Part shown: positions 4,111 to 12,565 of the stretch, in pieces
Numbering within the stretch: the stretch's first letter is position 1
Layout: each line of letters begins with the position of its first letter
Origin: Catellatospora sichuanensis
Lineage (GTDB): Bacteria; Actinomycetota; Actinomycetes; Mycobacteriales; Micromonosporaceae
Length of the DNA stretch: 64,000 nt
Direction: 5' to 3'
Assembly: GCF_007483665.1 (NCBI RefSeq)
Contig: NZ_ML660187.1
Span: 186,001-250,000, forward strand
Made by a program: the position numbers and the translations under genes
Notes under the pieces: generated by a model
The model's input: only the letters and a program-made list of their open reading frames with translations
Database searches by the model: none
What the model was told of the DNA's origin: nothing

Positions 4111-5235
4111 CTAGGCCGAGCGCCGCTGCGGCACCACGACCGTCGTGACCAGCTTGGTCTTCACCGTGTGCTCGGCCGGCACCGACCGCACGATCACCGC
4201 ACCCGAAGCGACCTGGACGCCGTCACCCAGCTCCACGTGCGGCTCGATGAAGATGCCGGTACCGAGGCGCACCCGGTCACCGATCGTGACGAGCCCCGAC
4301 GACACGCACGAGGGCCCGGTGGAGATGTCCGTGCCCAGCGTGCTGTGGTGGTCGAACGAGTTGTACGCCGACAGGAAGTTGTTGTCCCCGATCCGGACCT
4401 CGGTCCCGAGGTGGCAGAAGGCGCAGATGACATTGCCCTGCCCCATTTGCACCCCGGTGGCGATCTTGGCAGTCGGGTCGATCGCGTTCGCGAGGGGAAT
4501 GCCCAGCGCTTGACACTTCTCCCGCAGTTTCCGACGCGCCGCCACGGAGGTGCTGATCGCGATGATCGCGGCGTCGAAGGTCTTGTCGGCGAAGAGCTGC
4601 CCGAGCCGGTCGCTGCCGCCCACGACGGGTACGCCCGCGACGAGCGTGCCCCACTTCTCCCGGCTGTCGTCGACGATCGCCACGGCTTGCTGCGTCGTCG
4701 ACCCACTCAGGATGTCGATGACCTGGGTGGCGCCGAGGCCGCCTCCGATCAGCAGCACCCGCTGCACGTCGGCGGCCGCGGTCAGCGGTGACGGCAGTGC
4801 GGACTCGTCGATCGTGCTGGACTTGGCCGCCGCCTCCTCCACGTCCTTCACCGTGATCAGACCGGCACCGACGATGGCGGAGAGATCGACGCCAAGCTCA
4901 GCGGCGCGCTGGACGGCCTTCTGCGAGGCGTGCACGGCCGGTGCCTCCGCCTGCGGAGCCGGCACCTGCGCCTGATGTGCCTGGTGCCCCTCCAGCGCGG
5001 CCAGGTCGGGGAAGAGCAGGGCCACCGGGTCGGCCAGGGAGAACTCGGTGCCCTCCGCGGCGAGGTGCAGCAGCGCTCCCGCTTCAGGCGCCACGACCTC
5101 CAGGACGGCCTTGCTCGTCTCCACCTCCGCGAGGAGATCACCCTGCTCGATCAGCGAGCCGCTGGCGGCGAACCACGCCACGAGGACCGCCCGCTCGCTG
5201 TTGACGTCGGTCGTGGGCACGATGATCGGCTTCAT
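4111..5235 (-). CDS. Chimeric lipoyl / subunit-binding / PglD-type sugar acyltransferase
   Basis: A 374-residue fusion. Residues 1-78 form a lipoyl domain with the lipoylation motif ETSKA (Lys42). An Ala/Pro/Gln linker follows, then an E3/E1 peripheral-subunit-binding domain (about 101-136, ASQKAVQRAAELGVDLSAIV). Residues 157-245 are a Rossmann-like PglD_N domain (VLLIGGGLGATQVID), the nucleotide-sugar-binding half of PglD/NeuD. Residues 252-355 are a left-handed beta-helix with hexapeptide repeats and the likely catalytic His (FDHHSTLG, His296/297). The usual E2 catalytic core is absent. It overlaps the E1beta gene by 4 bases and is translationally coupled to it. I infer that an acyl group made by E1 is carried on the lipoyl arm to an amino sugar. 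I know of no characterised enzyme of this architecture; a CoA donor is also possible. Confidence 0.85.
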   Translation of the reverse strand: MKPIIVPTTDVNSERAVLVAWFAASGSLIEQGDLLAEVETSKAVLEVVAPEAGALLHLAAEGTEFSLADPVALLFPDLAALEGHQAHQAQVPAPQAEAPAVHASQKAVQRAAELGVDLSAIVGAGLITVKDVEEAAAKSSTIDESALPSPLTAAADVQRVLLIGGGLGATQVIDILSGSTTQQAVAIVDDSREKWGTLVAGVPVVGGSDRLGQLFADKTFDAAIIAISTSVAARRKLREKCQALGIPLANAIDPTAKIATGVQMGQGNVICAFCHLGTEVRIGDNNFLSAYNSFDHHSTLGTDISTGPSCVSSGLVTIGDRVRLGTGIFIEPHVELGDGVQVASGAVIVRSVPAEHTVKTKLVTTVVVPQRRSA

Positions 5236-6242
5236 GCGGCAGCCACCCGGACGGCCGCGTCGATCCGGTCTGCGCCAACGAGCATGCTGCTCTCCTTCAG
5301 CTTCGATGATGGAACGATGTCACTGTCACTGGCCACGATCTCGACCGGGCGGCGCAGGCGCTGGAAGAGCCGCCGCGAGATGACCGCGGCCGCCTCGGTG
5401 CCCCAGGACCAGCCGGCGGTGCCCTCTTCGACGGTGACCAGGCTGCCGGTTGCGCTTACCGACCGCTCGACCGGGTCCCAGTCCATCGGCGCCAGCTGGC
5501 TCGGCACCACCAGTTCGGCGAAGATCTCGTCCTCCAGCGCCAGCCGCTCGACCACCCGAGCGGCGAGCGCGGCCTGATACCCGTAGGCGAGCACGGTGAC
5601 CGTGCACCGCTCCCGTGGCACGGCCGACAGGAAGACCGACGGGAGAGCCCCGGGAGACGAGTGCTCGCTCGCGAGCAGGCCGCCGATGCGGCCGTTCTCG
5701 GCAAGCGTGAGGTTCTCGGGGTAGAGCAGCTTGTGCTCGACGTAGAGCGCGGGGCTGGTCTGCTGGAGCAGCTCGGCGAAGATCCGGCGGGGGTCGTGGA
5801 CCAGGGAGGCGGCGACGACCCTGAGATGCGGTACGCCGAGGAAGTGCTTCTCCAGGCTCTGGCTGTGCGTGGGACCGTAGCCACGGTGGCCGCCCGAGGG
5901 CGCCCGCAGGATGACGGGGCAGTGCGCCTGGCCGGCGTACATGGCTTCGTACTTGGTGATGTGGTTGACCACCTGGTCGAACGTGAGGGTCAGGAAGTCA
6001 CCGAACATGATCTCGGCGATCGGGCGGTAGCCGGCGAGGGCCAGCCCCGCGGACACCCCCGCGATGGCCCCCTCGCTGATCGGCGTCGTGCGCACCCGGT
6101 CCGGGAAGTCGGTGGACAGCCCGCGGGTCACCTTGAACGCGCCACCGTAGGGGTCGGCGATGTCCTCGCCCAGCAGGACCACTCGTGGATCGTCGGCCAG
6201 GCAGGCCCGCAGCGTGGCACCCAGCTCCTTAGCGAAGATCAT
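5232..6242 (-). CDS. 2-oxoacid dehydrogenase E1 component, beta subunit
   Basis: A 336-residue transketolase-like beta subunit of a thiamine-diphosphate E1. It shows the conserved GEDIADPYGGAFKVTRGL region and TPISEGAIAGVSAG with the cofactor-activating Glu57, then FLTLTFDQVVNH and the C-terminal transketolase domain. With the alpha subunit it would decarboxylate a 2-oxo acid and reductively acylate the lipoyl domain. Start: ATG overlapping the alpha-subunit stop by 4 bases; its own stop overlaps the next start by 4 bases. No E3 (dihydrolipoamide dehydrogenase) is nearby, so a housekeeping E3 must be shared if the cycle turns over. Confidence 0.93.
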   Translation of the reverse strand: MIFAKELGATLRACLADDPRVVLLGEDIADPYGGAFKVTRGLSTDFPDRVRTTPISEGAIAGVSAGLALAGYRPIAEIMFGDFLTLTFDQVVNHITKYEAMYAGQAHCPVILRAPSGGHRGYGPTHSQSLEKHFLGVPHLRVVAASLVHDPRRIFAELLQQTSPALYVEHKLLYPENLTLAENGRIGGLLASEHSSPGALPSVFLSAVPRERCTVTVLAYGYQAALAARVVERLALEDEIFAELVVPSQLAPMDWDPVERSVSATGSLVTVEEGTAGWSWGTEAAAVISRRLFQRLRRPVEIVASDSDIVPSSKLKESSMLVGADRIDAAVRVAAA

Positions 6243-7162
6243 GCCAGGCCCTTCGCGGTCGTGACGACGTCGGAGATCGCCGCTTCGACGCTGTCGTCGA
6301 TCGCCTGGCGCTCGGTGTCGGTCAGGCGCTTGCCGTGTACGACGAGCGGCTCGACCAGCCAGCGGGCCTCGACCTCGGCGGCGGGCCGGTCGTCGTCGTT
6401 CTTGGAGTGGTGGCACAGGCGGTAGGTGTGGATGAGCAGCACCCGCGGGCCGCCGGTCCGCCGCAGCTCCTGGATCTCCTCGGCCGCGGCGTCGTCGAGC
6501 TCGAGGACATCGGTGCTGTCGATCTCGCGTACCGGAATGCCGAAAGCCTCGAAGCGGTGCCGCATGCTGCCGGCGAGGTTCGCGGAGACCGGCGTGCTCT
6601 GCGCCCACGCGTTGTCCTCGCAGACCACGAGCAGCGGCAGGCGCCACAGCGCCGCGATGTTGAGCGTCTCGTAGACGGCGCCCTCACCAAGGGTGCCGTC
6701 GCCGATGAAGACCACGCTGATCGCGTCCGAGCCGGAGAGCTGGTTGGCGAGCGCGATTCCGGCCGCGGCCGGGACGATGCCGCCCTGCACGCCGTTCGAC
6801 TTGAACCCTGGGGCGCAGATGTGCTGGCTGCCGCCGAGACCGCGGCAGACGCCCGCGTCCTTGCCCATGATCTCGGCGAGCAGGCCGACGGCGTCGCCGC
6901 TCTGGGCGAGGTAATGACCGTGGCAGCGGTGGTTGCTGAAGACGTGATCGCCGTCACGGAGGTGCTCCATCACGGCGACGGCGTCGGCCTCCTGCCCGAT
7001 GCAGGCGTGCGTGGTGCCGTTCAGCTCGCCCTGATCGAAGAGGCTGAGCAACGTCTCCTCGAACCGGCGGATGAAGCGCATGCGGCGGTACAGCCGCTCA
7101 TTGCGAGACTCGCGCGCGTACCCCGTCAATCGCTCATCGAGTACGCCTTGCACCACTGCCAT
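6239..7162 (-). CDS. 2-oxoacid dehydrogenase E1 component, alpha subunit
   Basis: A 307-residue alpha subunit of a heterotetrameric thiamine-diphosphate-dependent E1. It has HACIGQEA (51-60), the loop GLGGSQH (108-114) and the cofactor motif from GDG (154) to N184. It resembles the acetoin/pyruvate dehydrogenase type. The ATG used here is preferred over an upstream in-frame start because GGAGGGG lies 8 bases before it and the family normally begins about here. First gene of a three-gene coupled operon. The shared divergent interval (7163-7429) toward the plus-strand glycan genes must carry its promoter. The 2-oxo acid substrate is unknown. Confidence 0.93.
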   Translation of the reverse strand: MAVVQGVLDERLTGYARESRNERLYRRMRFIRRFEETLLSLFDQGELNGTTHACIGQEADAVAVMEHLRDGDHVFSNHRCHGHYLAQSGDAVGLLAEIMGKDAGVCRGLGGSQHICAPGFKSNGVQGGIVPAAAGIALANQLSGSDAISVVFIGDGTLGEGAVYETLNIAALWRLPLLVVCEDNAWAQSTPVSANLAGSMRHRFEAFGIPVREIDSTDVLELDDAAAEEIQELRRTGGPRVLLIHTYRLCHHSKNDDDRPAAEVEARWLVEPLVVHGKRLTDTERQAIDDSVEAAISDVVTTAKGLA

Positions 7163-7429: not shown

Positions 7430-8731
7430 GTGCAATCCTCCGACGAGACCGGAAACGCGAGCCGCGGGTCGGCCGACGCGACTGAGATCCTGCCGCGCAT
7501 CAAGGCTGACGACGCTTCGGCGCGCGCCGGTGACGCAGCGGTCTCCGACGAGGGGCCGGTCTCCGACGAGACCGGGAACCCGAGCCGGGGGTCGGCTGAC
7601 GCGACTGAGATCCTGCCGCGTATCAAGGCCGACGGCCCTTCGGCAGGGGACGCTGACGCAGCGGTGTCCGCCAGGACTCCGGCCGGTCGCCTGGCGACGG
7701 TCATCGACATCGTCCGGCCGGCGACCCGGCGGAGCAGGAACATCCTCGCGGCCGCCGGGTCGGCGCTGCTGGTGATCGCCGTCACCGTGTCGATCGTCGG
7801 TCTCGGCAGTCTGCGCAGCGTGCCGGTCGTCGCGGCCTTCGTCCCGGACTTCATCGAGGCGTCGCCGACCCAGGAAGCCGTCGCCGCCGGCACGCCGAAG
7901 CCGCCGAGCCGTCCGCAGGCGCGCCGGCCCAGCCCCAGCCCGACGCGCAAGCCGAGGAACAGCGAAAGCGTCGGGCAGCCGGGCCGGCCCGTCAACCTGC
8001 CCAGCCCCACCGGCGCGCCCCGGCCCAAGCCGGTCACGCTCGATGACTACCTGGCCCTGGTCCCGTCGTTCCCGCCTGCGCCCACGCCGGTCAAGGTCAA
8101 CCTGTCGCATGACGCGGGCGAAGCTGCGTACGTCAGCCGTGTCCCCACGTCCAAGCCGGTGGCTTTCATCACCATCGACGACGGCTGGCACCACAACCAG
8201 CTCACCCACGACCTGCTGCAGCGCTCCGGCATCCCGGTGACGGCGTTCCTCACGACCAACGCCGTCGACGATGCCGTGGACTTCTTCGGCAGCCTGCGGT
8301 CGAGCGGGATGGCCATCGAGAACCACACGATGACCCATCCCTGCCTGGCGAAGAACGAGAACACGTCGGATCCGTGCGGCGACGGCCTGACCTACGAGGA
8401 GCAGAAGGCGGAGCTCTGTGGCGCGTCCGACCTGCTCGACGGATGGTACGGACGGCGGCCGGCCTACTTCCGTGCGCCGTACCTGGAGAGCAACGCCGAC
8501 ACGATCCGCGCCGCGTGGGACTGTGGCCTGGTGGCGGGCTTCACCGGCCAGCAGTCCATCCACGCCGGCGTCATCAGCTGGGCTTCGGACGACCACCGCG
8601 TGAAGCCCGGGGACATCATGATCCTGCACTTCGACGCGGGCTTCGCCGACGACTTCATTCTCGCGCTGGAAGCGATCAAGGCGTCCGGCCTCACCCCGGT
8701 TCTGCTGCAGGACTGGGTCAGCGTCAGCTAG
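7430..8731 (+). CDS. Membrane-anchored polysaccharide deacetylase
   Basis: A 433-residue type II membrane protein. The N-terminal cytoplasmic tail (about 1-100) contains two copies of a 24-residue repeat with the motif ATEILPRI. It ends in basic RRSR before a transmembrane helix (ILAAAGSALLVIAVTVSIVG). A Pro-rich wall-spanning linker leads to a C-terminal NodB domain: FITIDDGWH (catalytic Asp), NHTMTH (metal ligands), YFRAPY, and MILHF. Predicted to deacetylate an extracellular glycan. GTG start without clear ribosome binding site; a TATGTA box 10 bases upstream suggests a very short leader. It heads the plus-strand glycan cluster. Confidence 0.85.
   Translation: MQSSDETGNASRGSADATEILPRIKADDASARAGDAAVSDEGPVSDETGNPSRGSADATEILPRIKADGPSAGDADAAVSARTPAGRLATVIDIVRPATRRSRNILAAAGSALLVIAVTVSIVGLGSLRSVPVVAAFVPDFIEASPTQEAVAAGTPKPPSRPQARRPSPSPTRKPRNSESVGQPGRPVNLPSPTGAPRPKPVTLDDYLALVPSFPPAPTPVKVNLSHDAGEAAYVSRVPTSKPVAFITIDDGWHHNQLTHDLLQRSGIPVTAFLTTNAVDDAVDFFGSLRSSGMAIENHTMTHPCLAKNENTSDPCGDGLTYEEQKAELCGASDLLDGWYGRRPAYFRAPYLESNADTIRAAWDCGLVAGFTGQQSIHAGVISWASDDHRVKPGDIMILHFDAGFADDFILALEAIKASGLTPVLLQDWVSVS
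7439..7633 (+). repeat. Two 72-bp direct repeats in the deacetylase gene
   Basis: Copies at 7439-7510 and 7562-7633 start 123 bases apart. They keep the reading frame and encode SDETGNxSRGSADATEILPR plus IKAD. Most differences are at wobble positions. Confidence 0.9.
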
Positions 8732-8803
8732 CCGGCCGCTGCGGCCGGAAGAAGACACTGCCTGCCCTGGGCGGGCGGAGAAGGACACGCAGGGGGAACG
8801 GTC

Positions 8804-10351
8804 ATGCCGAGTCTGTTGTTCTACGAGGCCGGAGAAGCACCCACGACACGGTCGGTGCGCGAGCTCAAGACGCTGCGTGAGCACGGTTGGGACATCACGG
8901 TGGCCCACATGCCCGACGCCACCGAACGGGTGGAGGCGCTCGGCTTCCGGTCCTGCCTGCTGCCCGGCCCCGCCCGCAATGCGATGTACGTGCACCTCCG
9001 CGACGAGGCCATCGAACTCCGCAAGCAGCTCGAGGAGATCAAGAACGAGATCGCTCAGCACGTCGAGTCGGTCCGTAGCCGCGAGGCCGGGCCGCGGGCG
9101 CGCCTCGTCGAGCTGCGTGACGAGGTCGAGGCGCACGTCGCCCGCATCGCGGAGCTTCGGGCCGCGGGCGACAAGACGGCGGAAGCCGCCGTCCGCGAAA
9201 GACTCGCCGCGGCCAAGGATGAGCGCACGGCCGTCGCTGCACATATCAACGCCATGACGGCCGCCTCCGGCCCCGTGCTGACCGTGCTCAAGGAGCGCCG
9301 GACAGAGTTGGCGGTCCGGTCCCGCGCCGTCAAGGCGACCCGAGGACTGCCTACGCCCATCACCGCCGGGGTGACCTTCGGCGACCTTGCCCGGTTCGAA
9401 CCGCGGTGGCACGCCCACGCCCCGGTGCTCGCCACCGTCACCGCCGACGTCTACTGGGCCGCCGACCTCGACGGGCTCCCGCCGGTCATCTGGGCCGCCG
9501 AGGCCGCCGAGAACAACCCGCCCGTCGTCTACGACTCGCACGAGCTGTTCTGCGAGCTGGAGTACATGCCGGAGCTGTACCGGGCCGCCTGGCGGCAGCT
9601 GGCCGACGTTTTCATCCCGCGCGCCACGGCCGTCATCACGGTCTGCCGGCCGATCGCCGACGTGCTCGACAAGGAGTACGGCGCCAACGGCACGCACGTG
9701 ATCGCGAACTACGCGGCCATCGGCCGGCCCGGCGTGCCCGCAGGGCTGCGGTCGACGGTGGGCGTCGGCGCGGACGTGCCGCTAGCCGTGCATATCGGCA
9801 ACGTCAGCCGCGGCCGCAATCCGGACCTCAGCGTCGATCTGCTGGCCGAATTCCCCGAGCTGCATGTCGCCTTCGTAGGCGCCGCGAGCGCGGAGATCAC
9901 CGACGACCTGCGGCAGCGCGCGAGCGCGCGCGGTGTCGCCTCGCGCCTGCACTTCGTGCCGCCGGTGCCGCTGGACGAGGTCAGCGCGTTCATCTCCGAC
10001 GCCGACCTCTCGCTGATCATGCTGGACGGCAGCCGATCCCGGGACACGCTCTTCACCATGCCGAACAAGCTCTTCGACTCCCTCTCGGCGGGCGTTCCCG
10101 TCATCGCGACGGAAGGCTCGGCCGCGGGCGATTTCCTGCTCGCAGAGGAGCTGGGCTGCGTCTTTGCGCTGAACACCACAGGCGCACTCTCGTCTGCTGT
10201 GCGTAGACTGCTCGCCGACACGGCGACCCGGGACCGGGCTCGGTCCCGGGTGGGGCAGTTCACCTGGGCAGAAGCAGAGGTCACTCTGCTGTCCGTGCTC
10301 GACGGCCTGCTCGACCGCGCGCGAGCAGACATCGCCGACAACGCCGCGTAA
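8804..10351 (+). CDS. GT-B glycosyltransferase with coiled-coil insertion
   Basis: A 515-residue predicted glycosyltransferase, probably family GT4-like. The N-terminal Rossmann half starts MPSLLFYEAGEAPTTRSVRE. Residues about 66-185 are an unusual Glu/Arg/Ala-rich coiled coil (for example ELRKQLEEIKNEIAQHVESV). The fold resumes with VYDSHELFCELEYMPELYR, and the C-terminal half carries a nucleotide-sugar site (PNKLFDSLSAGVPVIATEGS). No membrane segment; it would work on the cytoplasmic face. Start supported by GGGGA 7-8 bases upstream. It lies between the deacetylase and oxidoreductase genes, so it may transfer the sugar this cluster makes. Substrates are not predictable. Confidence 0.82.
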   Translation: MPSLLFYEAGEAPTTRSVRELKTLREHGWDITVAHMPDATERVEALGFRSCLLPGPARNAMYVHLRDEAIELRKQLEEIKNEIAQHVESVRSREAGPRARLVELRDEVEAHVARIAELRAAGDKTAEAAVRERLAAAKDERTAVAAHINAMTAASGPVLTVLKERRTELAVRSRAVKATRGLPTPITAGVTFGDLARFEPRWHAHAPVLATVTADVYWAADLDGLPPVIWAAEAAENNPPVVYDSHELFCELEYMPELYRAAWRQLADVFIPRATAVITVCRPIADVLDKEYGANGTHVIANYAAIGRPGVPAGLRSTVGVGADVPLAVHIGNVSRGRNPDLSVDLLAEFPELHVAFVGAASAEITDDLRQRASARGVASRLHFVPPVPLDEVSAFISDADLSLIMLDGSRSRDTLFTMPNKLFDSLSAGVPVIATEGSAAGDFLLAEELGCVFALNTTGALSSAVRRLLADTATRDRARSRVGQFTWAEAEVTLLSVLDGLLDRARADIADNAA

Positions 10352-10403: not shown

Positions 10404-11450
10404 ATGACCTCGAACCGTCCCCTCGGTGTCGCCGTCATCGGCGCCGGCTACTGGGGTCCCAACCTCGTCCGCAACTTCCAGGGGTCCGCCTCCTTCCAGC
10501 TGCGCTGGCTGTGCGACCTTGACCGGTCCCGCGCCGAGCGCGTCGTCGGGCGGTATTCGACCGTGCGGGTGAGCGTGGACCTCGACGAGGTGCTCGCCGA
10601 CCCCGAGGTCGACGCGGTCGCGATCGCCACCCCGGCCGGGACCCACATGCAGGTGGCGCTCGCGGCGCTGCGCGCCGGCAAGCACGTGCTGGTGGAGAAG
10701 CCGCTCGCGGTCACCGTCGCCGAGGCGGAGGAGCTGGTCCGCGAGGCCGAGAGCCGCGGCCTCACCCTCATGTGCGACCACACCTTCTGCTACACCCCGG
10801 TCGTCGCGCAGATCCGCGACCTCATCCACTCCGGGGACCTGGGCGACATCATGTGGGTCGACTCGATCCGCATCAACCTCGGTCTGGTCCAGCGGGACAT
10901 CGACGTCATCTGGGATCTCGCCCCGCACGACCTGGCAGTGCTCGACTTCATCATGCCGGAGGGCGTGGTGCCGGTAAGCGTCAGCGCGGTCGGCCGCGAC
11001 CCCATCGACGCCGGGCACAGCTGCCTTGCCTACCTGACCCTCAACCTGAGCAACGGCGCCATCGCGCACATCAACGTCAACTGGCTCTCGCCGGTCAAGG
11101 TGCGCAGCTTCACCGTGGGCGGGTCCAAGCGCACGCTCGTCTGGGACGACATGAACCCGATGTACCGCCTCAACATCTTCGACCGGGGCGTCGACATCAC
11201 TTCTGACGAGGATCTCGGGGTCGAGGAGAAGCGCAACCGGCTCATCTCCTACCGGTCGGGCGACATGATCGCGCCGGCCCTGCAGGAGCGCGAGGCGCTC
11301 CAGGCGATGGTCGAGGAGTACGCACACGCCATCCGTACCGGTACGCCGCCGAAGACCGACGGCCGGTCAGGCGTGCGCGTCCTGCGGATCCTTGAGGCAG
11401 CCTCGGCGAGTCTGGCCGAGAACGGCGCGTTGAAGATGGTGGAGCTGTGA
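10404..11450 (+). CDS. Gfo/Idh/MocA-family sugar oxidoreductase
   Basis: A 348-residue NAD(P)-dependent oxidoreductase. The N-terminal Rossmann motif is VAVIGAGYWGPNLVRNF, the nicotinamide-site motif is HVLVEKPLAV, and the catalytic-domain signature is WDLAPHDLAVLDF. The closest functional analogues by motif are WlbA/WbpB-type enzymes that oxidise NDP-sugars at C3 before transamination. The next gene is a DegT aminotransferase overlapping its stop, which supports a 3-keto then 3-amino sugar route. Substrate and cofactor identity are inference. Confidence 0.9.
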   Translation: MTSNRPLGVAVIGAGYWGPNLVRNFQGSASFQLRWLCDLDRSRAERVVGRYSTVRVSVDLDEVLADPEVDAVAIATPAGTHMQVALAALRAGKHVLVEKPLAVTVAEAEELVREAESRGLTLMCDHTFCYTPVVAQIRDLIHSGDLGDIMWVDSIRINLGLVQRDIDVIWDLAPHDLAVLDFIMPEGVVPVSVSAVGRDPIDAGHSCLAYLTLNLSNGAIAHINVNWLSPVKVRSFTVGGSKRTLVWDDMNPMYRLNIFDRGVDITSDEDLGVEEKRNRLISYRSGDMIAPALQEREALQAMVEEYAHAIRTGTPPKTDGRSGVRVLRILEAASASLAENGALKMVEL

Positions 11451-12565
11451 TGAACGTACCTCTGGTGGACCTGCGGGCCGCACACGTCGAGGTGGCCGAG
11501 GAGGTCAGCGCGGGTCTCCACCGCATCATGGCCGCCACCGCGTTCGTCGGCGGTGAGGAGGTCGCCGCTTTCGAGCGCGAGTATGCCGCCTTCACCGGGG
11601 TCGCGAACTGCGTCGGGCTCGCCAACGGCACCGACGCGGTGGAGTTCGCCCTGCGTGCGGCCGGCGTCGGCCCCGGCGACGAGGTGATCATCCCGGCCAA
11701 CACGTTCGTCGCGACAGCGGAGGCGGCGCACCGGGCCGGGGCGAAGATCGTCCTCGCGGACGTCGACCCGGCGACCTACCTCATGGACGTCGAGGACGCC
11801 CTGGCTCGCGTGACGCCGGCGACGAAGGCGATCGTGCCCGTCCATCTCTACGGGCAGATGGCTCCGCTGGAGCGGCTCAAGTCCGCCGTGGGCGGCAGCG
11901 GCGTCACGATCGTGGAGGACGCCGCGCAGTGCCAGGGAGCGCTGCGCCACGGGCTCCCCGCGGGCCATGACGGGATCGCGGCCACCAGTTTCTATCCCGG
12001 CAAGAACCTCGGCGCGTACGGCGATGCGGGCGCGGTCGTGACCGCCGACCCGGACCTGGCTCGGAAAGTACGCCTGCTGGGCAGCCATGGCGGGCTCACC
12101 CGCTACACCCACGAAGTGATCGGCTTCAACAGCCGGCTCGACGCGATGCAGGCCGTCGTCCTGCGGGCGAAGCTCGCGCGCCTGGCCGGCTGGAACGAGG
12201 CCCGGCGATCGGCTGCCGAGCGATACCACGGGCTGCTGGCGGGCCTCGACGTCGTACGCCCGGTGACGGCCGACGGAAACGAACACGTCTGGCACCTCTA
12301 CGTCGTCAGAGTGCCGGAGCGCGGTGTCCCGCAGCGGCGGGACAAGGTCCTCGAGCAACTCAACGCGGCGGGCGTCGGCGCGGCCCTGCACTATCCGACA
12401 CCGGTGCACCTCACCCCGGCGTTCGCAGGACTCGGCTACGCGGCCGGCGACTTCCCGAACGCCGAGCAGGTGGCAACGGAGATCCTTTCGCTCCCGCTCT
12501 ACCCGCAAATCACGCCTGAGCAGCAGGAATACGTCGTCAGCGTGCTGGCCGACGCACTCGGCTGA
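11450..12565 (+). CDS. DegT/DnrJ/EryC1 family sugar aminotransferase
   Basis: A 371-residue PLP-dependent aminotransferase, expected to convert a keto NDP-sugar to the amino sugar with glutamate as donor. It shows GLANGTDAVEFALRAAG, EVIIPANTFVATAEAAHRAG, the PLP contact VEDAAQCQGA, and the Schiff-base lysine in ATSFYPGKNLGAYGDAG. The ATG overlaps the oxidoreductase stop by one base (TGATG); a GTG three bases earlier is the alternative. With the oxidoreductase and the PglD-like chimera it forms the classical oxidise-aminate-acylate set for N-acyl amino sugars (Wbp/Wlb, Fdt and Qdt pathways). Confidence 0.93.
   Translation: MNVPLVDLRAAHVEVAEEVSAGLHRIMAATAFVGGEEVAAFEREYAAFTGVANCVGLANGTDAVEFALRAAGVGPGDEVIIPANTFVATAEAAHRAGAKIVLADVDPATYLMDVEDALARVTPATKAIVPVHLYGQMAPLERLKSAVGGSGVTIVEDAAQCQGALRHGLPAGHDGIAATSFYPGKNLGAYGDAGAVVTADPDLARKVRLLGSHGGLTRYTHEVIGFNSRLDAMQAVVLRAKLARLAGWNEARRSAAERYHGLLAGLDVVRPVTADGNEHVWHLYVVRVPERGVPQRRDKVLEQLNAAGVGAALHYPTPVHLTPAFAGLGYAAGDFPNAEQVATEILSLPLYPQITPEQQEYVVSVLADALG

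Follow-up and report, generated by a model that had tools for sequence, protein, structure and literature searches.

What is a lipoyl domain doing on a sugar acyltransferase? The question is raised by a three-gene operon in a 64,000-nucleotide stretch of the Catellatospora sichuanensis genome (contig NZ_ML660187.1, positions 186,001 to 250,000; the window), in which genes for the E1alpha and E1beta subunits of a thiamine diphosphate (ThDP)-dependent enzyme are followed, on the minus strand and with a 4-base overlap at each of the two junctions, by a gene for a protein that we refer to as the chimera. Its N-terminal part resembles the lipoyl and subunit-binding parts of an E2 acyltransferase, and its C-terminal part a PglD-type sugar acyltransferase with a left-handed beta-helix. 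The reading that we favor, with a probability of roughly two in three, is that an acyl group carried on the lipoyl arm would be passed directly to the amine of a nucleotide-linked amino sugar, whatever the acyl group may be.

The chimera and its linkage to E1 genes

Both halves of the chimera are recognizable in Pfam, with matches to Biotin_lipoyl (37.1 bits; cut-off 22.1) and Hexapep (46.1 bits; cut-off 27) and a PglD_N score of 21.7 bits that lies slightly below the cut-off of 23.4, and its PDB matches include E2 lipoyl domains. The E2 core, PF00198, was found neither among the Pfam matches of the chimera nor among the 25 commonest families across 38 of its homologs, and an ordinary E2 was rejected on this ground. 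Structure models of window-type chimeras and of a more distant second clade both have PerB as their best match, and the fold of the chimera also matches VioB and PglD; the absence of a family from the list of structure matches (VIA-align) carries no information. His296 is aligned with the PerB histidine that is mutated in the H141N entry 4eaa. The original prediction, made from these letters without database searches, had described three genes with 4-base overlaps, the presence of Lys42, His296 and His297, and the replacement of the E2 core by a PglD/NeuD-type acyltransferase; the gene coordinates, the residues at these positions, and the lack of PF00198 together with the PerB-like fold bear it out. 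Its subunit-binding domain is recovered in part, as a segment with two modelled helices (residues 105-114 and 129-139), but the E3_binding match is below cut-off (E=0.016, 15.9 bits versus 23.7), with matches at E<=1 in 10 of 38 aligned homologs.

A protein search in which 7998 candidates were scored yielded 778 chimera homologs at E<=1e-3, far more than chance would give; the close ones carry source names such as Micromonospora, Dactylosporangium and Actinoplanes, from which the window's bacterial family is taken as Micromonosporaceae. From the best 120 of the 778 an alignment of 118 rows was made (A2, including the window protein, P0001, and leaving out P0052 and P0109), and E39-T40-S41-K42, H296 and H297 are invariant in every row. 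The second clade is 22-28% identical to the window chimera, and among 38 selected sequences spanning both clades (A3) the positions invariant in all rows include P7, N12, E39, T40, K42 and H296. The 121 second-clade matches (P0121-P0241, nine of them left out of alignment A4) include three, P0200, P0205 and P0222, in which ET(S/T)K is not within the first 120 residues.

The window-type loci number 11, being the window and ten others (L001, L021-L029), and the search for the same domain order and neighbours that the original prediction had proposed finds the conserved fusion downstream of E1alpha and E1beta in all of them. E1alpha in the ten other loci is 71-80% identical to that of the window. 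With the window E1beta as query, 27 of 200 genomes of the same bacterial family match at E<=1e-60; E1beta is at least 73% identical in ten of the 200, which are exactly the ten with a chimera, and the next best is 48%. In the second clade, E1beta lies within about 2 kb of the chimera in eight of the ten stretches that were read among 11 genomes (in G846 the chimera is at a contig end). Misassembly or a frame artefact was rejected, because the same fusion recurs behind E1 genes at all 11 loci read in the bacterial family, and the second clade carries it elsewhere. These genomic comparisons support the view that the chimera forms a conserved family that goes together with a dedicated E1 pair.

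Its distribution is sparse. The chimera was found in 10 of 200 genomes sampled from the bacterial family, with no match in the ten other genomes of the same genus that were listed, and in 1 of 296 genomes sampled from the class, the window's own. A sample of 296 genomes from the phylum gave, beside the window, one distant relative outside the window's class, which adjoins E1 genes; this second-clade protein, used as a query, has 436 homologs, with named sources that include Thermoleophilia, Gaiellaceae, Chloroflexota and Anaerolineales, and second-clade chimeras are present in 11 of 199 genomes. When P0121, a second-clade protein, was searched by tblastn, 28 plasmid records were matched, but not one over 80% of the query; all the matches begin at query residue 144 or later and are therefore without the lipoyl domain.

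The E1 type and the likely acyl donor

The ThDP folds of E1alpha and E1beta are supported by Pfam and PDB matches, and in the original prediction the choice of acyl group would lie with the 2-oxo acid. In that version of direct transfer E1 would decarboxylate pyruvate, hydroxypyruvate or a branched 2-oxo acid, giving an acetyl or other acyl group. It is favored by E1alpha, which matches pyruvate dehydrogenases (PDH) best among both curated models and solved structures, the closest solved relative being human PDH E1alpha (6cer, E 8.9e-41), and by the lack of a transketolase proper above cut-off in Pfam and NCBIfam. E1beta argues for a different donor.

The next-nearest E1beta genes of the bacterial family (40-48% identity) were read at ten loci (L121-L130) out of 17 other genomes with E1beta at E<=1e-60. 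Here E1beta lies beside E1alpha, mostly with a gene resembling one for an acyl carrier protein (ACP) and with a lipoyl protein, which is fused to E1beta at L124, L129 and L130 and was not seen at L127; the surroundings, judged by eye, resemble natural-product clusters with peptide-synthetase-like neighbours. All seven of the natural-product lipoyl proteins scanned combine a lipoyl domain with PF00198. In layout and lengths these loci resemble NapB, NapC, NapD and NapE, given as 306, 76, 754 and 336 aa in a passage of PMC7570522, and SclQ1-4, given as 76, 305, 338 and 386 aa in a passage of PMC6335953, which also has QncN/L/M and SclQ1-4 deliver a glycolyl group from a ketose phosphate, via lipoyl, onto ACP.

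In a tree of 41 E1beta sequences (among them 10 of the 11 window-type sequences, all but L028, and 10 of the 11 ordinary ones tried, L118 giving no usable match) a branch supported at 100/100 separates the window, natural-product and second-clade sequences from the ten ordinary ones, and the window and natural-product sequences pair at 98/96. The motif RGYG(P/A)THSQ is present in 31 of 31 grouped sequences versus 0 of 10 ordinary ones, and ten columns are fixed (at least 93%) within the group and absent outside it; the GPTH of the motif is reminiscent of transketolase. The window E1 thus groups with cassettes that look like Qnc/Nap/Scl, a comparison made by layout, length and look-alike loci and not with the characterised sequences. 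Because E1beta goes with the natural-product type and stands apart from the ordinary one, a ketose phosphate donor and a glycolyl product would be the better guess, and the claim for a 2-oxo acid loses its support; acetyl-CoA, furthermore, would presumably already be available for an acetyl group. Of the probability given to the favored reading, the larger part goes to glycolyl, which by itself has somewhat less than an even chance; a group derived from a 2-oxo acid, counted within the same reading, appears rather unlikely.

By BLAST, the natural-product E2 proteins of L126 and L128 are similar to the chimera over its residues 4-133, with no match reaching the acyltransferase half, and this limit, together with the E1 grouping, makes the lipoyl module look like a cartridge with varied output domains. 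No ACP was matched in the 11 window-type or 10 second-clade stretches by a model built from seven natural-product ACPs, which would miss unlike ACPs; it matches seven of the ten natural-product stretches, those that built it, and misses the ACP-like open reading frame seen by eye in L122. At L125:4811-6566 a free-standing 170-aa lipoyl protein without an E2 core lies beside the E1 genes and a gene of the AllG family (oxamate carbamoyltransferase subunit), and is perhaps another output of the same E1-lipoyl cartridge. L129 has an additional KAS III gene (336 aa).

Direct transfer to an amino sugar and its alternatives

The ending GxPA(K/R), which we presume to lie at the coenzyme A (CoA) site, is found in 17 of 18 stand-alone NeuD relatives from the same bacterial family (those with loci among 26 listed matches over cut-off), and in 0 of 118 window-type chimeras and 0 of 121 second-clade matches. 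Part of a CoA-binding end had been pointed out previously in the stretch GAVIVRSVP; this is present at residues 345-353 of the chimera, but the GxPA(K/R) that follows in the stand-alone relatives is absent. The loss bears on a CoA route, in which the beta-helix half would use acyl-CoA as PerB and PglD do, and the lipoyl domain and E1 would be regulatory, vestigial or engaged in another reaction. Such a route is consistent with the fold match to the CoA-using PerB, VioB and PglD, with the widespread CoA enzymes that are the stand-alone relatives, and with a second type of lipoyl/beta-helix protein that retains the ending. It is difficult to reconcile with the missing ending, with a Lys42 that is invariant across 38 rows and two clades, with the co-occurrence of the chimera and a matching E1, and with the lack of an E2 core to make acyl-CoA, and we judge it decidedly unlikely.

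The neighbourhood points to a sugar acceptor. A DegT-family aminotransferase is encoded at most about 7 kb from the chimera in all 11 window-type loci (41-72% identity to that of the window), and its closest solved relatives are QdtB, the transaminase 2oga, and WbpE; QdtB and WbpE carry out amination at sugar C3. A homolog of the adjacent Gfo/Idh/MocA oxidoreductase is present in 5 of the 11 loci, and the best NCBIfam model for the window copy is UDP-GlcNAc 3-dehydrogenase, at 156 bits versus a cut-off of 450. N-acylation is the step still missing from such an amino-sugar pathway, and the chimera fits it. That this is a sugar locus is also in keeping with E1 forming a carbon-carbon bond, as a two-carbon branch on a ketosugar, with the lipoyl protein assisting or acylating separately; PDH-like pairs that act on sugars (AviB1/AviB2, Pau11/Pau12) have been proposed for the two-carbon branches of methyleurekanate and paulomycose in passages of PMC4425429. 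Those passages name no lipoyl protein for these systems, however, and the fusion of an invariant lipoyl lysine to an N-acyltransferase fold, with an aminotransferase nearby, would be left unexplained, so that we hold this alternative to be highly improbable.

Direct transfer from lipoyl to an amino sugar, as originally proposed, remains the best fit, because Lys42 and His296 are invariant, the fold is PerB-like, GxPA(K/R) is absent and the E2 core has been swapped; the swap counts in its favor since the described relatives of the cassette already pass a lipoyl-bound acyl group to an acceptor other than CoA, namely ACP. We infer lipoylation, direct transfer, the donor, the acyl group, the sugar and its acylated position, and the E3 as follows. 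E1alpha and E1beta, with ThDP, would cleave a small donor molecule, for which the ketose phosphate of the Qnc/Nap/Scl cassettes is the likeliest candidate, and reductively acylate the lipoyl group on Lys42 to give glycolyl-S-dihydrolipoyl or another small acyl thioester. The lipoyl domain would then swing to the beta-helix active site, where His296 would activate the sugar amine installed by the DegT aminotransferase, probably at C3, and the thioester would become an amide on the nucleotide-linked amino sugar, most likely N-glycolyl, without CoA. A housekeeping E3 would reoxidise the lipoyl arm.

Several observations weigh against this reading, beyond the fact that the chemistry is predicted from sequences and models. 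In the second clade no E1 adjoins the chimera at two of ten loci. In G653, assembled as a single contig, a 67%-identical E1beta lies far from the chimera, and in G908 and G846 the E1beta (64% and 63%) is on a different contig; in G653 and G908 that E1beta adjoins the second lipoyl/beta-helix type. The constant neighbour of the second-clade chimera is not an aminotransferase gene but one of sulfotransferase-family type, present in 10 of 10 stretches (L066, L074-L082) and assigned by Pfam from the L074 copy (8222-9265). The second lipoyl/beta-helix type, represented by unlike proteins of 522 and 524 aa with a long extra C-terminal part (L131:5065-6633 and L132:5703-7277), adjoins E1alpha and E1beta and retains GVPAK and GVPAR, so that loss of the ending is neither needed for lipoyl feeding nor proof of it. 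The subunit-binding match is weak, and the E1beta tree, in which the characterised cassette proteins are not included, was returned with a long-branch warning. As a separate observation, a sulfatase-family gene adjoins the lipoyl/beta-helix protein of L131.

Compared with known systems, the chimera resembles the Qnc/Nap/Scl glycolyl-ACP cassettes in an E1 pair that groups with those of look-alike loci, a similar lipoyl sequence (in the look-alikes of L126 and L128) and a predicted acceptor other than CoA, but those cassettes have the PF00198 core and an ACP where it has a PerB-like acyltransferase; with no E2 core and no ACP found, it is not filed among them. With PerB, VioB, PglD and NeuD (TIGR03570) it shares the Rossmann plus beta-helix fold and the aligned catalytic histidine, but it adds a lipoyl domain, a subunit-binding-like segment and a dedicated E1; it is not filed as a NeuD-family CoA enzyme because it lacks GxPA(K/R) and scores 126.3 bits against a TIGR03570 cut-off of 160.8, which the second-clade P0121 (159.0) likewise does not reach. 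Nor is it filed with the PDH, branched-chain (BCKDH) and acetoin 2-oxoacid dehydrogenase complexes, with which it has E1alpha/E1beta folds and a lipoyl domain in common, because the E2 core is absent; its E1beta also stands apart and its genes belong to a sugar locus. LpxA and LpxD are beta-helix acyltransferases fed by acyl-ACP through a phosphopantetheine arm, whereas the arm here would be a lipoyl-lysine on the same chain. In the way it is predicted to work, the chimera system is like a cross between a NeuD-family CoA enzyme and a glycolyl-ACP cassette.

No published description of a lipoyl/PglD-type chimera was found in the literature searched, mostly without subscription journals, and the design of E1, lipoyl domain and sugar acyltransferase looks uncharacterised. 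The original statement to this effect agrees with our search, but it did not name the close precedent of Qnc/Nap/Scl. One candidate description, PMC4875605, was rejected, since 'lipoylation' in the relevant passage means fatty-acid chains.

A broader reading, which we put forward tentatively and at rather less than even odds, is that the chimeras form a class, spread over several phyla, of CoA-independent, lipoyl-dependent amino-sugar N-glycolyltransferases fed by a transketolase-like E1 that uses a pentose-phosphate ketose. It would include an E1-lipoyl cartridge whose output has been swapped between ACP loading in natural products and sugar acylation in surface glycans. The existence of two dissimilar types of lipoyl/beta-helix protein suggests that such a swap may have happened repeatedly. 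If true, beta-helix sugar acyltransferases would have a further feeding route beside acyl-CoA and acyl-ACP, glycan decoration would be linked directly and CoA-free to a ketose or oxo acid, and the E1-lipoyl unit would be a portable module. An unusual sugar, probably N-glycolyl, would be predicted in the surface glycans of carrier bacteria, and a function could be given to a family that databases call 'biotin/lipoyl-containing protein' or 'NeuD/PglB/VioB family sugar acetyltransferase'.

Gene calls and neighbouring genes

Table 1. Features of the operon and sugar locus, in window coordinates.
Feature	Position	Strand	Basis
E1alpha subunit, 307 aa, ThDP-dependent	6239-7162	-	Pfam E1_dh 166.7 bits
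E1beta subunit, 336 aa, carries RGYGPTHSQS	5232-6242	-	Pfam Transket_pyr 85 bits and Transketolase_C 57.1 bits
Chimera (lipoyl / subunit-binding-like / PglD-type / beta-helix), 374 aa	4111-5235	-	
Lipoyl domain of chimera, residues 1-76	5008-5235	-	Pfam Biotin_lipoyl 37.1 bits
Lys42 of chimera, predicted lipoylation site, in ETSK	codon 5110-5112	-	
Subunit-binding-like segment of chimera, residues 103-140	4816-4929	-	weak E3_binding match and modelled helices
PerB-like half of chimera (PglD-type Rossmann and left-handed beta-helix), residues 158-361	4153-4764	-	
His296 of chimera, predicted catalytic base	4348-4350	-	alignment with PerB
His297 of chimera	4345-4347	-	
Glycosyltransferase-like gene	8804-10351	+	Pfam Glyco_trans_1_4 44.5 bits
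Gfo/Idh/MocA oxidoreductase, possible sugar 3-dehydrogenase	10404-11450	+	Pfam
DegT/DnrJ/EryC1/StrS aminotransferase	11447-12565	+	Pfam 359 bits

Immediately upstream of the operon, on the opposite strand, lies a polysaccharide-deacetylase gene (7430-8731, plus strand; Pfam), and a gene at 1951-2829 on the minus strand resembles a second polysaccharide deacetylase, judged by eye. L001 additionally carries a stand-alone relative of the sugar half of the chimera; it adjoins a further DegT gene, an arrangement that would suit a different sugar.

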